This document shows, in pieces, positions 395-11,544 of a DNA stretch of 64,000 bases. The position numbers were made by a program, and so were the translations under genes. Within the stretch, counting starts at the first letter, position 1. Each line of letters starts with the position of its first letter. This stretch comes from Pseudogemmatithrix spongiicola. Its GTDB lineage: Bacteria > Gemmatimonadota > Gemmatimonadetes > Gemmatimonadales > Gemmatimonadaceae. The notes beneath the pieces are model-generated. The model saw only the letters and a list, made by a program, of their open reading frames with translations. It had not been told where the DNA came from and did no database searches. The stretch is taken from NCBI RefSeq assembly GCF_030623445.1, contig NZ_CP130613.1, positions 2,604,001-2,668,000 of the forward strand. Direction: 5' to 3'.

Positions 395-2853
<2,459 letters not shown>

Positions 2854-6417: not shown

Positions 6418-6548
6418 CGTGCGCGCTCCATCGCCTCGCGCTTGCGGGCGACGGCGGCGCGACGGAGGCGGATCGAGAGGGCGTAGCCGACGAACATGGC
6501 GATGAGCGCGCCGTACGCCACTTGGTAATAGATCGCGTTCTCTGGCAT
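6414..6548 (-). CDS. ccmD: CcmD-like small membrane protein
   Basis: 44 residues, starting MPENAIYYQVAYGALIAM and ending in a basic tail KREAMERAR. It has one membrane segment with a positively charged C-terminal end, the size and shape of CcmD, which holds heme-loaded CcmE to the CcmABC complex. Its ATG (6548) overlaps the ccmC stop (TGATG) and its stop overlaps the ppa start (GTGA). Position and topology support the call; there is little sequence to compare in such a short protein. Confidence 0.78.
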   Translation of the reverse strand: MPENAIYYQVAYGALIAMFVGYALSIRLRRAAVARKREAMERAR

Positions 6549-7246
6549 CAGGACTCCGCGGTGGTAGCGTCGAGCAGCGCGTCGCGTTCCGCGGCGAGCG
6601 CCATGCGCTGGCGCACCAGTGCCATGTAGAGCACCGTGAACGCCCCGAGCGCCAGGAAGAGCGTCGTGATCATCACCGCCGGCATCTGGATGCCGGTCGG
6701 ATTGGCCACGATCGGCGTCGGGTGCTGCGTGCGGAAGAGGTAGACGCTGAGATGGATGAACGGGATCAGCAGCGCGCCGAGGATGCCCACGACGGCGCTG
6801 TACCGCGCCCGGGCCTGGCGATCATCGACGGCGCCGCGCAGCACGAGGTAGCCGAGGTAGAGGAACCAGAGAAACAGCGTCAGCGTGAGGCGGGCGTCCC
6901 AGACCCACCAGGCGCCCCAGATCGGCTTGCCCCAGAGCGGCCCGGAGACGAGGACGCCGGTGGTGAAGATCACGCCGACTTCGGCCGAGGACTCCGCGAA
7001 GCGATCTAGGCGCGGGTCCTTGATGAAGAGCCACACCCCGCCGGCGATCGCCGTCAGGCCGAAGGCGAGGAACGCCACCCACGCCGACGGCAGGTGCACG
7101 TAGAAGATCTTCTGCGCCATGCCCTGCAGGCGGTCAGGCGGCGTGAAGTAGATGGCGCGCACGAAGGCCGCGGTCATGAGCGCGACGGCGGCGACCATCA
7201 GCCAGTCGATGCCGCGGCGGGGGCGTACGGAAGCGGGAGCAGTCAT
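6548..7246 (-). CDS. ccmC: Heme exporter permease CcmC
   Basis: 232 residues from ATG at 7246 with six membrane segments. The heme-handling tryptophan-rich motif WGAWWVWDARLT is clear, flanked by histidines in YVHLPSAWV and IPFIHLSVY. CcmC presents heme to CcmE in system I cytochrome c maturation. It follows ccmB after four bases and overlaps ccmD. No ccmE, ccmF or ccmH is in the window. Confidence 0.94.
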   Translation of the reverse strand: MTAPASVRPRRGIDWLMVAAVALMTAAFVRAIYFTPPDRLQGMAQKIFYVHLPSAWVAFLAFGLTAIAGGVWLFIKDPRLDRFAESSAEVGVIFTTGVLVSGPLWGKPIWGAWWVWDARLTLTLFLWFLYLGYLVLRGAVDDRQARARYSAVVGILGALLIPFIHLSVYLFRTQHPTPIVANPTGIQMPAVMITTLFLALGAFTVLYMALVRQRMALAAERDALLDATTAES

Positions 7247-7250
7247 CAGG

Positions 7251-7940
7251 TCAGTCTTCGAGCGTGAACGGGAACGTCAGCATGCAGGCGTACAGGAAGA
7301 CGAGGTCGAAGGCGAGCAGGATACGGAACCAGCCCAGCGACTCGTCCACGGGGCGTCCCGCGAGCAGCTTGGCGGTGACCTGCGCCGCCGGGAGCACGAT
7401 CGGGACGAAGAACGGCAGCGCGAGCACCGGCAGCAGCAGCTCGGCCATGCGCGTGTTGGACGTAATGCCGGCGAACAGCGTCCCGACGCAGGTGAGTCCG
7501 ATGGCCGCGAGGAGCATCGCCAGCGCCAGCGGACCGACGACCACCGAGAGCGGCAGGTTGTAGAACAGCGCCAGCGCAGGCAGCGCCACCACTTGAACTC
7601 CCAGCACGAACGCGAAGTTCGCCAGCGCCTTGCCGAGGAAGATGGACTCGCGCGCGACCGGCGCGACGAGCAGCGCGTCCATCGCGCGTTCCTGCGCCTC
7701 GACCCCGAAGCTGCGGTGCAGGCCGAGGAGGCCGGAAAACGTAAACGTCACCCAGAGGATGCCAGGCGCGACGTCCACGGCGGCCACGGCGGTGGGATCC
7801 CAGGCGAAGTAGAAGATCACCAGCGAGAGCAGCGAGAGCACCAACGCCGAGAGGAACGCCGAGCGCGAGCGGAACTCGATGGCGAGGTCCTTGCGGGCGA
7901 TCAGCCAGGCGGCGCCGAGCAGGCCGGGGGGTCGGTTCAT
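7251..7940 (-). CDS. ccmB: Heme exporter permease CcmB
   Basis: 229 residues from ATG at 7940. It has six hydrophobic segments, the N-terminal region ARKDLAIEFRSRSAF and the motif LLGLHRSFGVEAQERAMDAL typical of CcmB. With CcmA it forms the ABC part of the heme chaperone pathway. The start overlaps the ccmA stop by four bases (ATGA), so the two subunits are translationally coupled. Confidence 0.94.
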   Translation of the reverse strand: MNRPPGLLGAAWLIARKDLAIEFRSRSAFLSALVLSLLSLVIFYFAWDPTAVAAVDVAPGILWVTFTFSGLLGLHRSFGVEAQERAMDALLVAPVARESIFLGKALANFAFVLGVQVVALPALALFYNLPLSVVVGPLALAMLLAAIGLTCVGTLFAGITSNTRMAELLLPVLALPFFVPIVLPAAQVTAKLLAGRPVDESLGWFRILLAFDLVFLYACMLTFPFTLED

Positions 7941-8635
7941 GCGAAGAGCTCCCGGTATTCGGCGGCGTAGCGTGCGACGTCGAGCCCCTGCGTGGGCTCG
8001 TGGCGGACAAAGCTGCCGGCCCGCATGACGGCGGCGTGCGACGCGACGGCAAGGCCCTCGCTGAGCGCATGGGTGACGACGACCAGCGCGGCACCGGCGC
8101 TGCGGCGCTCGAGCAGCAATCCGGTGAGGGCGCTCGCGCCCTGTTCATCGAGGCCGGTGTAGGGCTCGTCGGCGAGCAGCACGTCCGGCCCATGCACGAT
8201 GGCGCGGGCGATGGCGACGCGCTGCTGCAGGCCGCGCGAGAGCGCCCGGACGGGCACGTCGGCGCGGTCCGCGACGCGCAGCTGCTCGAGGGCGTGCTGC
8301 GTCACCGACTCGGCATCCGGCACGCCGTGCAGCTGTGCCGCGAAGCGCACGTTCTCGCGCGCGGTCAGCGTGTCGTAGAGCATGGTGCGGTGCGAGATCA
8401 GTCCGACGCGGGCCCGGGCATGGGGGGCCGGGAGCGCGGCGCCGGCGATGGCCGCCGACCCGCTGTTGGGCTTGAGCAGGCCGGCGAGCAGCCGCAGGAG
8501 CGTCGTCTTGCCGGCCCCGTTCGGACCGAAGAGCGCGAGGGCCTCACCGGCCGCGATGCCGAAGGAGACGTCGTTGACGGCCTGGCGCGTCCCGAAGGCG
8601 CGCACGAGGCGGCGGGCTTCGAGCAGCGGGGTCAC
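7937..8635 (-). CDS. ccmA: Heme exporter ATPase CcmA
   Basis: 232 residues from GTG at 8635. ABC ATPase with Walker A GPNGAGKTT (37-45), a signature variant LSRGLQQRVAIARA and Walker B DVLLADEP, followed by the H-loop VVVTHALSEG. The SRG form of the signature is usual in CcmA. It is the first gene of ccmA-ccmB-ccmC-ccmD-ppa on the minus strand and drives release of heme-loaded CcmE. Confidence 0.93.
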   Translation of the reverse strand: MTPLLEARRLVRAFGTRQAVNDVSFGIAAGEALALFGPNGAGKTTLLRLLAGLLKPNSGSAAIAGAALPAPHARARVGLISHRTMLYDTLTARENVRFAAQLHGVPDAESVTQHALEQLRVADRADVPVRALSRGLQQRVAIARAIVHGPDVLLADEPYTGLDEQGASALTGLLLERRSAGAALVVVTHALSEGLAVASHAAVMRAGSFVRHEPTQGLDVARYAAEYRELFA

Positions 8636-8710: not shown

Positions 8711-9043
8711 TCAGCCCGTGCGCTCGATGTCGAACAGCGGTCCCATCCGTGTCTCATCGAAGAGGCGCTCGACGGCGCTCGGCACGGCATGGAGCCGCAC
8801 ACGCATGCCGCGCTCGCGCGCGCGCTTCTGAAGGAGCACGAGGACACCCAGCCCGCTGGCGTCGATGTCGACGACGGCCGAGAAGTCGAGCTCTACGCTC
8901 GCGGCCCCGGCGGCGAACGCCGCGTCGAGCGCCTGCAGCGCTTCGGTGCGGAACTCAACGCGAGTCTCGGTGGTGAGATGGGGCGGACAAGCGAGGGGAG
9001 CCATGCGGTCCACGTCCGTGGCCAAGGTGGGTGATGCGGTCAT
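8711..9043 (-). CDS. STAS-domain protein (anti-sigma antagonist-like)
   Basis: 110 residues from ATG at 9043, chosen because GGAGG lies eight bases upstream; a TTG at 9058 would lie inside that ribosome site. The STAS core VELDFSAVVDIDASGLGVL is at 50-68, with S63 at the position phosphorylated in SpoIIAA-type proteins. Such proteins bind anti-sigma kinases or act in larger signalling assemblies. No partner kinase is adjacent. The leader carries a GEMM-I riboswitch, so expression is probably set by a cyclic dinucleotide. Confidence 0.88.
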   Translation of the reverse strand: MTASPTLATDVDRMAPLACPPHLTTETRVEFRTEALQALDAAFAAGAASVELDFSAVVDIDASGLGVLVLLQKRARERGMRVRLHAVPSAVERLFDETRMGPLFDIERTG

Positions 9044-9126
9044 TGCAGCGTCCTCCAAGTGAGAGGCGTGCCCACCACCCGACCTTCGTTGCTCCCGTTG
9101 TCCCCGCGTCTGGGTCCTGCGATGCG

Positions 9127-9216
9127 GTCACTTCGGCAACCGGACGATCTCGAGAATCCGAGACTCCTGGCTTTGCGTCCCCGCCTCGCGACGGGTTTGC
9201 TCTTGTCGGTGTGGCG
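9127..9216 (-). promoter_or_regulatory. GEMM-I cyclic-dinucleotide riboswitch with A at specificity position
   Basis: In minus-strand reading the aptamer shows GAGCAAACC (9202-9194), a 4-bp stem CGTC/GGCG closed by a GCGA tetraloop, the core GGGACGCAAAGCC (9181-9169), a variable hairpin with TCTCG/CGAGA, and the closing GGTTGCCGAAGTG (9141-9129). These are the conserved blocks of the c-di-GMP-I family, including the GNRA tetraloop. In Vc2 the bases before CAAACC are GGG, the middle one being G20 that contacts the ligand. Here they read GAG, giving A20, the mark of the cyclic AMP-GMP subclass. About 85 bases separate it from the STAS start. Confidence 0.85.
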
Positions 9217-9240: not shown

Positions 9241-9256
9241 GGCGAGATGCGTGCCA
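9241..9256 (-). promoter_or_regulatory. Possible sigma-54 (-24/-12) promoter for the riboswitch-STAS transcript
   Basis: The minus strand reads TGGCAC-GCATC-TCGCC, with GG and GC ten bases apart as in -24/-12 promoters; the -12 half (TCGCC) differs from the best consensus. Transcription would begin near 9230, about 14 bases before the aptamer, which is a sensible place. No enhancer site or activator was found, so this stays a weak prediction. Confidence 0.33.
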
Positions 9257-9390: not shown

Positions 9391-9508
9391 CTTCACCACG
9401 AAGGCACGAAGACACGAAGGCTGGCAGATCCTCACGACCAGGCTTTGACTGGGACCGCACCCGCGCACCCGACCACTTCCTTCGTGGCTCCGTGTCTTCG
9501 TGGCTGTC
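9391..9508. repeat. CACGAAGG-type inverted repeat, divergent interior
   Basis: The left arm reads CTTCACCACGAAGG then CACGAAGACACGAAGG (three tandem octamers); the right arm near 9480-9505 reads CCTTCGTGGCTCCGTGTC and TTCGTGGC. The interior differs from the other copies and lacks their central palindrome. Unlike them, it lies upstream of a gene (acs) rather than at gene ends. The rest of the 9257-9579 gap has no gene that I can support; the short frames there are translations of the repeat. Confidence 0.75.
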
Positions 9509-9579: not shown

Positions 9580-11544
9580 ATGACCGAGATCCGCGACCTC
9601 CTCGTTGAGACCCGCTCGTTCCCGCCGCCGCCGGCCTTCGCTGCGCAGGCTCACATCAACGACCGCCGCCTCCACGACGCCGCCGACGCCGATTTCATCC
9701 AGTACTGGGCCGAGCAGGCGGCGACGCTGCGATGGACGAAGCCTTGGGACCGCGTGCTCGACTGGCAGCCGCCGCACGCGCAGTGGTTCCTCGGCGGGCA
9801 GCTCAACGTCAGTGCGAACTGCCTCGACCGGCATCTCGACGGGGCGCGCCGCAACAAGGCCGCCATCGTGTGGGAAGGCGAACCCGGCGACCGCCGCACG
9901 CTCACGTACTGGGAGCTCGCGCGCGAGGTGCGAACCTTCGCCAACGTCCTCAAGGGACTCGGCGTGCAGAAGGGCGACCGCGTGGGGATCTATCTTCCGC
10001 TGGTGCCCGAGGCAGCCATCGCGATGCTCGCCTGTGCGCGCATCGGGGCCATCCATTCCGTCGTCTTCGGCGGCTTCTCGCCCGAGTCGCTGCGCGACCG
10101 CATGAACGACGCGCAGGCCAAGGTCGTCATCACCGCCGACGGCGGCTACCGCCGCGGGCAGATCGTGCCGTTGAAGCGCAACACGGACAAGGCGCTGGAG
10201 GAATGCCCGACCGTCAAGCACGTGGTGGTCGTGCAGCGGCGCACGTCGGGGCCGATCACGGAAGCGCACGTGGACATGAAGGAAGGCCGCGACCACTGGT
10301 ATCACCGGCTGATGCAGCATGCCAACGACCAGTGCGCGCCGGAGCCGATGGACGCCGAGGACGTGCTCTTCATCCTCTATACGTCGGGCACGACCGGGAA
10401 GCCGAAGGGCATCGTGCACACGACGGGGGGGTACCTCACCGGTGCGGCGAGCTCGACCAAGATGGTCTTCGACCTCAAGGAAGAAGACGTCTTCTGGTGC
10501 ACCGCCGACGTGGGCTGGATCACGGGGCACACGTACCTCGTCTACGGCCCGCTCGCCAACGGCGCGACCTGCGTGATGTACGAAGGCGCGCCCGACTGGC
10601 CCGAGCGCGATCGCTTCTGGAGCATCATCGCACGGCACGGCGTTACGGTCTTCTACACGGCGCCGACCGCGATCCGAGCGTTCATGAAGTGGGGCGTGGA
10701 GCATCCGCGGCGGCACGACCTCTCGACGCTGCGCCTCCTCGGCTCCGTCGGCGAGCCCATCAACCCTGAAGCCTGGATGTGGTACCAGGAGCACATCGGC
10801 GGCAACCGTTGCCCGGTGGTGGACACCTGGTGGCAGACCGAGACCGGTTCGATCGTCATCTCGCCGCTGCCCGGGCTCACGGCCACCAAGCCGGGTTCGG
10901 CGACGCAGCCGCTGCCCGGGTATTCGGCAAAGCTGATGGACGCGCAGGCGAACGAGCTCACCAGCGGCGGCGGCTTGCTCGTATTGACCAAGCCCTGGCC
11001 GTCGATGCTGCGCACGATCTGGGGCGATGACGCGCGCTACGTGGAGACCTACTTCTCGAAGTGGGCGGGGCGGCCCGACCTCTACTTTGCCGGCGACGGC
11101 GCGAAGCTCGATGCCGATGGTTTCTTCTGGCTGCTCGGCCGCGTGGACGACGTCCTGAACGTCGCGGGGCACCGGATCGGTACCATGGAAGTCGAATCGG
11201 CGCTGGTCGAGCATCCCGCAGTGGCCGAGGCGGCGGTGGTGGGCAAGGCCCACGAGCTCAAGGGCCAGGCGGTCTGCGCGTTCGTCACGCTGCGCGACGG
11301 CTTCCACAAGAGCTCCGAGCTGCGCGACGATCTCCGCGAGTTCGTGGCGAAGAAGATCGGCGCGTTGGCGCGGCCGGATGACGTGCTCTTCTCGGCGGAC
11401 CTGCCCAAGACCCGCTCGGGGAAGATCATGCGGCGCCTGCTGCGCGACATCGCCGAGGGGCGGGCGCTGGGGGACACGACGACGCTCGCGGATCCGAACG
11501 TAGTCGCGGCGTTGAAGGAACAGTACGAGAAGGACGAAGGCTGA
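9580..11544 (+). CDS. acs: Acetyl-CoA synthetase
   Basis: 654 residues from ATG at 9580. It activates acetate to acetyl-CoA via acetyl-AMP. The N-terminal ACAS region includes [17 protein letters not shown]; the AMP-binding signature [18 protein letters not shown] is near 268-285, followed by [11 protein letters not shown] and the hinge region [20 protein letters not shown]. The C-terminal [10 protein letters not shown] carries the lysine normally controlled by acetylation. The length is typical. It is a single gene flanked by palindromic repeats on both sides. Confidence 0.96.

Follow-up and report, generated by a model that had tools for sequence, protein, structure and literature searches.

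The window analysed here, a stretch of 64,000 nucleotides, contains a GEMM-I (c-di-GMP-I class) aptamer on its minus strand, the one riboswitch returned by an Rfam search of the full 64 kb. It lies between a sigma54-type promoter-like site and a gene for a STAS-domain protein, behind which follow ccmABC genes; on its other side is a divergent acetyl-CoA synthetase gene. The features of the locus are:

6548-7246, minus strand: CcmC-type cytochrome c assembly protein (PF01578, E 5e-30)
7251-7940, minus strand: CcmB, heme exporter/cytochrome c maturation (PF03379, E 2.6e-32)
7937-8635, minus strand: CcmA-like ABC ATPase (PF00005), adjoining CcmB
8711-9043, minus strand: STAS-domain protein of 110 aa, SpoIIAA/anti-anti-sigma-like (PF13466, E 1e-13; PF01740, E 1.5e-9)
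9052-9066, minus strand: hairpin CCUC...GGAGG with the Shine-Dalgarno sequence, the presumed translational expression platform
9129-9211, minus strand: GEMM-I aptamer with full P1 (RF03167, RF01051, covariation)
9136, minus strand: C at the position of Vc2 C92 (Rfam and structure-based alignments)
9175-9176, minus strand: 3' side of the P2-closing pairs (Vc2 G45, C46), followed by A47 at 9174
9199-9200, minus strand: 5' side of the P2-closing pairs (Vc2 G21, C22), pairing with 9175-9176
9201, minus strand: A at the position of Vc2 G20 (Rfam alignment, alignments A1 to A3)
9242-9256, minus strand: sigma54-type -24/-12 promoter-like site TGGCACGCATCTCGC, about 31 nt upstream of the aptamer
9580-11544, plus strand: divergent acetyl-CoA synthetase gene

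The Rfam match spans 9131-9210 (minus strand), where RF03167, c-di-GMP-I-GGC, scores 63 bits against a cut-off of 59 (E 1.6e-12, the best Rfam E-value for this aptamer) and RF01051 scores 67 bits against a gathering cut-off of 35. Both scores exceed the gathering cut-off and, together with covariation, they confirm the minus-strand GEMM-I aptamer that the first-pass annotation, which had itself called for this search, had placed at 9127-9216; its limits were correct within a few bases. Among 39 related aptamers, 89.6% of helix cells were paired, against 20-41% when the partners were slid, and 13 of 22 helix pairs showed compensatory changes, being altered on both sides. The element is a genuine riboswitch aptamer of the cyclic-dinucleotide class GEMM-I. 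No second RF01051 match was found across the 3,257,781-base genome; the window aptamer is the only one it has.

Vc2 A47 is kept as A at 9174 in the Rfam and structure-based alignments, and the C at 9136 occupies the position of C92, the Watson-Crick partner of the ligand in Vc2. Neither of the P2-closing pairs, G21-C46 and C22-G45, varies among the 38 distinct relatives in alignment A1. The Vc2 numbering used agrees with the ligand contacts of 3IRW, namely G19, G21, C46 and A47 (PMC7288161). Inside P2, columns 15 and 34 of alignment A1 (aptamer positions 9197 and 9178) show a paired change at non-canonical positions, the alternatives being GCAAACC/GGGACGC and GCACACC/GGG(T/C)CGC.

Immediately 5' of the P2-closing pair, the Rfam and the structure-based alignments alike show A (9201), which bears out the earlier assignment of A, not G, to Vc2 position 20. 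This position is known to influence the choice of ligand. In Gmet_0970 of G. metallireducens A20 alone decides between cGAMP and c-di-GMP, and A20G switches selectivity (PMC6456294), while the Vc2 G20A mutant can bind cGAMP (PMC7288161, PMC11352751). Position 20 is nevertheless a selectivity factor and no hard filter: c-di-GMP is also bound by cGAMP riboswitches, via a protonated adenine, and selectivity is altered by point changes in lower P2 (PMC9262584). The P2-closing pair of 4YAZ, next to its A, is C15-G40 (PMC6274999); the window aptamer closes P2 with G9200-C9175. It thus shares with GEMM-Ib the A at Vc2 position 20 and lacks the C-G closure of 4YAZ, which is not known to be common to every GEMM-Ib aptamer.

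Comparison with known systems places the aptamer between several of them. With RF01051 and Vc2 it shares all helices, the core blocks, G21-C46, C22-G45, A47 and C92, and it differs from Vc2 in having A rather than G at position 20 and a short P3 of the RF03167 kind. The short P3 is its likeness to RF03167, whose consensus has G both at the A47 position and at position 20, whereas the window aptamer has A at both. The Geobacter GEMM-Ib aptamers (Gs1761, Gm0970, 4YAZ) resemble it in A20, overall fold and short P3; in contrast, P2 closes with C-G in 4YAZ and the Geobacteraceae examples, the window genome has no Hypr-like GGDEF, and the genes reported behind GEMM-Ib are those for cytochromes, pili and polysaccharides rather than a STAS gene, though here ccmABC follow. 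Closest in the combination of A20 with a G21-C46 scaffold is the cGAMP-binding Vc2 G20A mutant (PDB 4YB1), but that combination was engineered, whereas the one in the window is natural and conserved.

The promoter-like site TGGCACGCATCTCGC is the sole match to the sigma54-type pattern on either strand of the window, and no sigma70 promoter was found at the locus. The pattern begins 45-49 nt upstream in 12 of the 13 STAS-linked aptamers examined, and of the 17 genus genomes 16, this one included, have RpoN. The STAS gene is the first gene behind the riboswitch, and its orthologues lie behind the aptamer in eight other members of the genus. A CcmA-like ATPase gene adjoins the STAS gene at all nine type I loci of the genus (aptamer types are described below), and the two may be co-transcribed. 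The order acetyl-CoA synthetase, aptamer, STAS, ccmA is kept in nine genus genomes, over which the aptamer is nearly invariant and the surrounding leader diverges. Together the sigma54-like promoter, the aptamer, the STAS gene and ccmABC make up a unit that is conserved, a finding new to this analysis. A natural riboswitch-less version exists in G005 (L396, G005:C1:410224-410517), which retains the STAS gene and the sigma54-type promoter-like site with no recognisable aptamer between them. Two further observations were made in the window: an inverted pair of a TTCGTGTCTTCGTGCCTTCGTGG-like repeat, not expected by chance, lies in the intergenic region upstream of the riboswitch (9396-9503), and an ORF at 395-1594 (minus strand) resembles, by eye, an IS110-type transposase.

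No rho-independent terminator was found behind the aptamer, and in nearly all of the nine genus leaders, which differ in sequence, a hairpin holds the Shine-Dalgarno sequence in its 3' arm. For these two reasons control is presumed to be translational. Anti-aptamer pairing and stability of the Shine-Dalgarno hairpin were clear in G008 only; in the other leaders they were no better than in shuffled sequences.

If the riboswitch were a cGAMP sensor the bacterium would need a cGAMP synthase, as the first-pass annotation had pointed out, and none of a known kind was found. The genome contains seven PF00990 (GGDEF) matches (L002-L008), and in all seven domains the selectivity position is occupied by the c-di-GMP-type Asp, in contrast to the Ser or Thr of Hypr enzymes (PMC9140294). 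One of them, G000:C1:1787013-1787486 (L002), has GGEEL in place of GGEEF, a variant recurrent among relatives in the genus. Elsewhere in the genus Asp occurs in nearly all readable GGDEF domains, a handful of weak or atypical ones standing outside that count. Hypr-like GGDEF domains were sought in three ways, by the PF00990 family, by reading of the domains and by a DNA pattern for Ser or Thr with positive controls (four Desulfuromonadales/Geobacteraceae genomes, all positive with 1-3 matches each), and were rejected for this genome, the 17 genus genomes and the 59 family genomes, in none of which one was found. The same pattern gave 13 matches in two sister families (GHLVGS type). No SMODS CD-NTase was found in this genome, and among the 17 of the genus only G016 has one; the DncV-like PF21654 search gave zero matches anywhere, positive controls included, and is therefore given no weight.

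The distribution of A20 was examined on two scales. Named bacterial and archaeal genomes were scanned for the exact core AGCAAACC-N(8-24)-GGGACGCAAAGCC, which yielded at least 120 A20 matches; among those listed were Firmicutes, Chloroflexi, Omnitrophota, Nitrospirota, Planctomycetes, Deltaproteobacteria, Gemmatimonadota and others. In fifty genomes from among the matches listed, GGDEF domains were sought whose selectivity position holds Ser, Thr, Cys or Arg. Such Hypr-like domains were absent from 45 and present in five, namely four Desulfuromonadales/Geobacteraceae and one unclassified proteobacterium. Among the aptamers of the Geobacteraceae are some built like 4YAZ, AATACTAAACC...GACGGAAAG, combining A20 with a C-G-closed P2; beside these occur both A20 aptamers with G-C closure and G20 aptamers. 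The combination of A20 and a G-C-closed P2 is frequent beyond Geobacter, so the view that A20 marks a Geobacter-type subclass does not hold. Since most of the A20 carriers tested have no Hypr-like GGDEF, A20 by itself is unsafe as a mark of cGAMP signalling.

Within the order, 153 aptamer matches were aligned to a common model. A20 was present in 16 of 16 in the genus, which lie in nine genomes, in 7 of 73 in the rest of the family and in 36 of 64 in sister families. Three inherited types can be distinguished among the A20 aptamers. Types I and III are for the most part followed by STAS genes, type II by lipoproteins with Ig-like repeats; the 16 aptamers of the genus represent two inherited types and not 16 independent events. 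Among 19 STAS-linked aptamers in the order A20 occurs in 18, across two families, and G20 in one (L236 in G035), and no Ser-type (Hypr-like) GGDEF was found in the genomes of these 19. A20 in the STAS-linked aptamers is conserved, not drifting, yet this is not due to a Hypr enzyme. It is under selection, and could mark a different ligand, since 18 of the 19 have kept it although several of the same genomes carry G20 aptamers as well.

Our preferred reading, to which we assign a probability of about 0.6, is that the riboswitch in the sigma54-STAS leader senses c-di-GMP and acts on translation, with A20 setting the affinity or a threshold and not changing the messenger. Transcription would start at the sigma54-type promoter, and the A20 GEMM-I riboswitch in the 5' leader would tune translation of the anti-anti-sigma-like STAS regulator, perhaps together with that of the ccmABC genes that follow. 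The ligand is most likely c-di-GMP, or either dinucleotide (dual specificity), because no known kind of enzyme making cAMP-GMP was found in this bacterium; within the cell it would most probably be c-di-GMP made by the ordinary Asp-type GGDEF enzymes of the genome. The G20 of the STAS-linked aptamer in G035 shows that the STAS unit also exists with the c-di-GMP-type base. The position of an Asp-type GGDEF gene just in front of an A20 aptamer in G008 likewise favours c-di-GMP.

Acceptance of cGAMP besides c-di-GMP agrees with the behaviour of a Vc2-like scaffold with A20, which takes cGAMP (PMC7288161, PMC11352751), and with the SMODS CD-NTase of G016, although that enzyme occurs in only one of the 17 genus genomes and not in this one. 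To this extent the earlier proposal of a possible cGAMP sensor stands, for an A20 aptamer of such build probably binds cGAMP in vitro, as Vc2 G20A does. As an account of signalling in the cell, cGAMP is not favoured: the inference is weakened by the occurrence of A20 beyond Geobacter, the Vc2-like P2 closure, the lack of a synthase of known type and the STAS-linked A20 aptamers in genomes without Hypr-like GGDEF.

A true cGAMP sensor, in a lineage making cGAMP by an unrecognised synthase, we consider unlikely. Such a synthase might be a CD-NTase outside SMODS or a relaxed Asp-type GGDEF enzyme, for example the GGEEL protein. The presence of A20 in every GEMM-I aptamer of the nine genus genomes and its retention in STAS-linked aptamers of two families argue for such a sensor, as do the switch of selectivity in Gmet_0970 A20G (PMC6456294) and the binding of cGAMP by Vc2 G20A (PMC7288161). 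However, the genus figure reflects two inherited types, A20 is widespread without Hypr-like GGDEF, which was found in neither genus nor family, no SMODS enzyme was found in this genome, and the P2-closing pair differs from that of 4YAZ. A wider form of the idea seems to us improbable. In it, the ligand of the STAS-linked A20 aptamers of the order would not be c-di-GMP but another cyclic dinucleotide, 3',3'-cGAMP in the simplest case, and the enzyme making it would belong neither to the Ser/Thr-type GGDEF proteins nor to the SMODS CD-NTases. If true, this would account for the conservation of A20 in cells that carry G20 aptamers as well. That the element is a degenerate, non-functional GEMM-I remnant with selectivity lost through A20 is hardly credible, for although G005 shows that the element can be lost, all core positions and the covarying helices are kept, and the aptamer is nearly invariant in nine genomes while the leader diverges. 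The unit of sigma54-type promoter, A20 GEMM-I aptamer and STAS gene, in which A20 persists alongside G20 aptamers of the cell, offers natural material for testing whether position 20 selects a different messenger or adjusts the affinity for a single one.

A better place in the order to seek cGAMP signalling is a sister family with Ser-type GGDEF, outside the family of the window. GGDEF proteins whose selectivity position bears Ser (NDRxGHLVGS), like that of Hypr enzymes, were noted at L072-L079 and L081-L084 in sister families f2 and f3. In f2, type II A20 aptamers occur in nine of nine genomes with a Ser-type GGDEF, as against three of 11 without (Fisher p = 0.0014, phylogeny ignored). In G008 an Asp-type GGDEF gene lies directly upstream of a type II A20 aptamer (L364, G008:C16:36900-39800). 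The second A20 type of the genus, GCTGCTCAGAGC...CCGCCAGC, precedes lipoproteins with bacterial Ig-like repeats (L038, L045-L048, L051). Its 3' strand GAGCCGCC is able to pair with a downstream GGCGGCTC, which suggests an attenuator.
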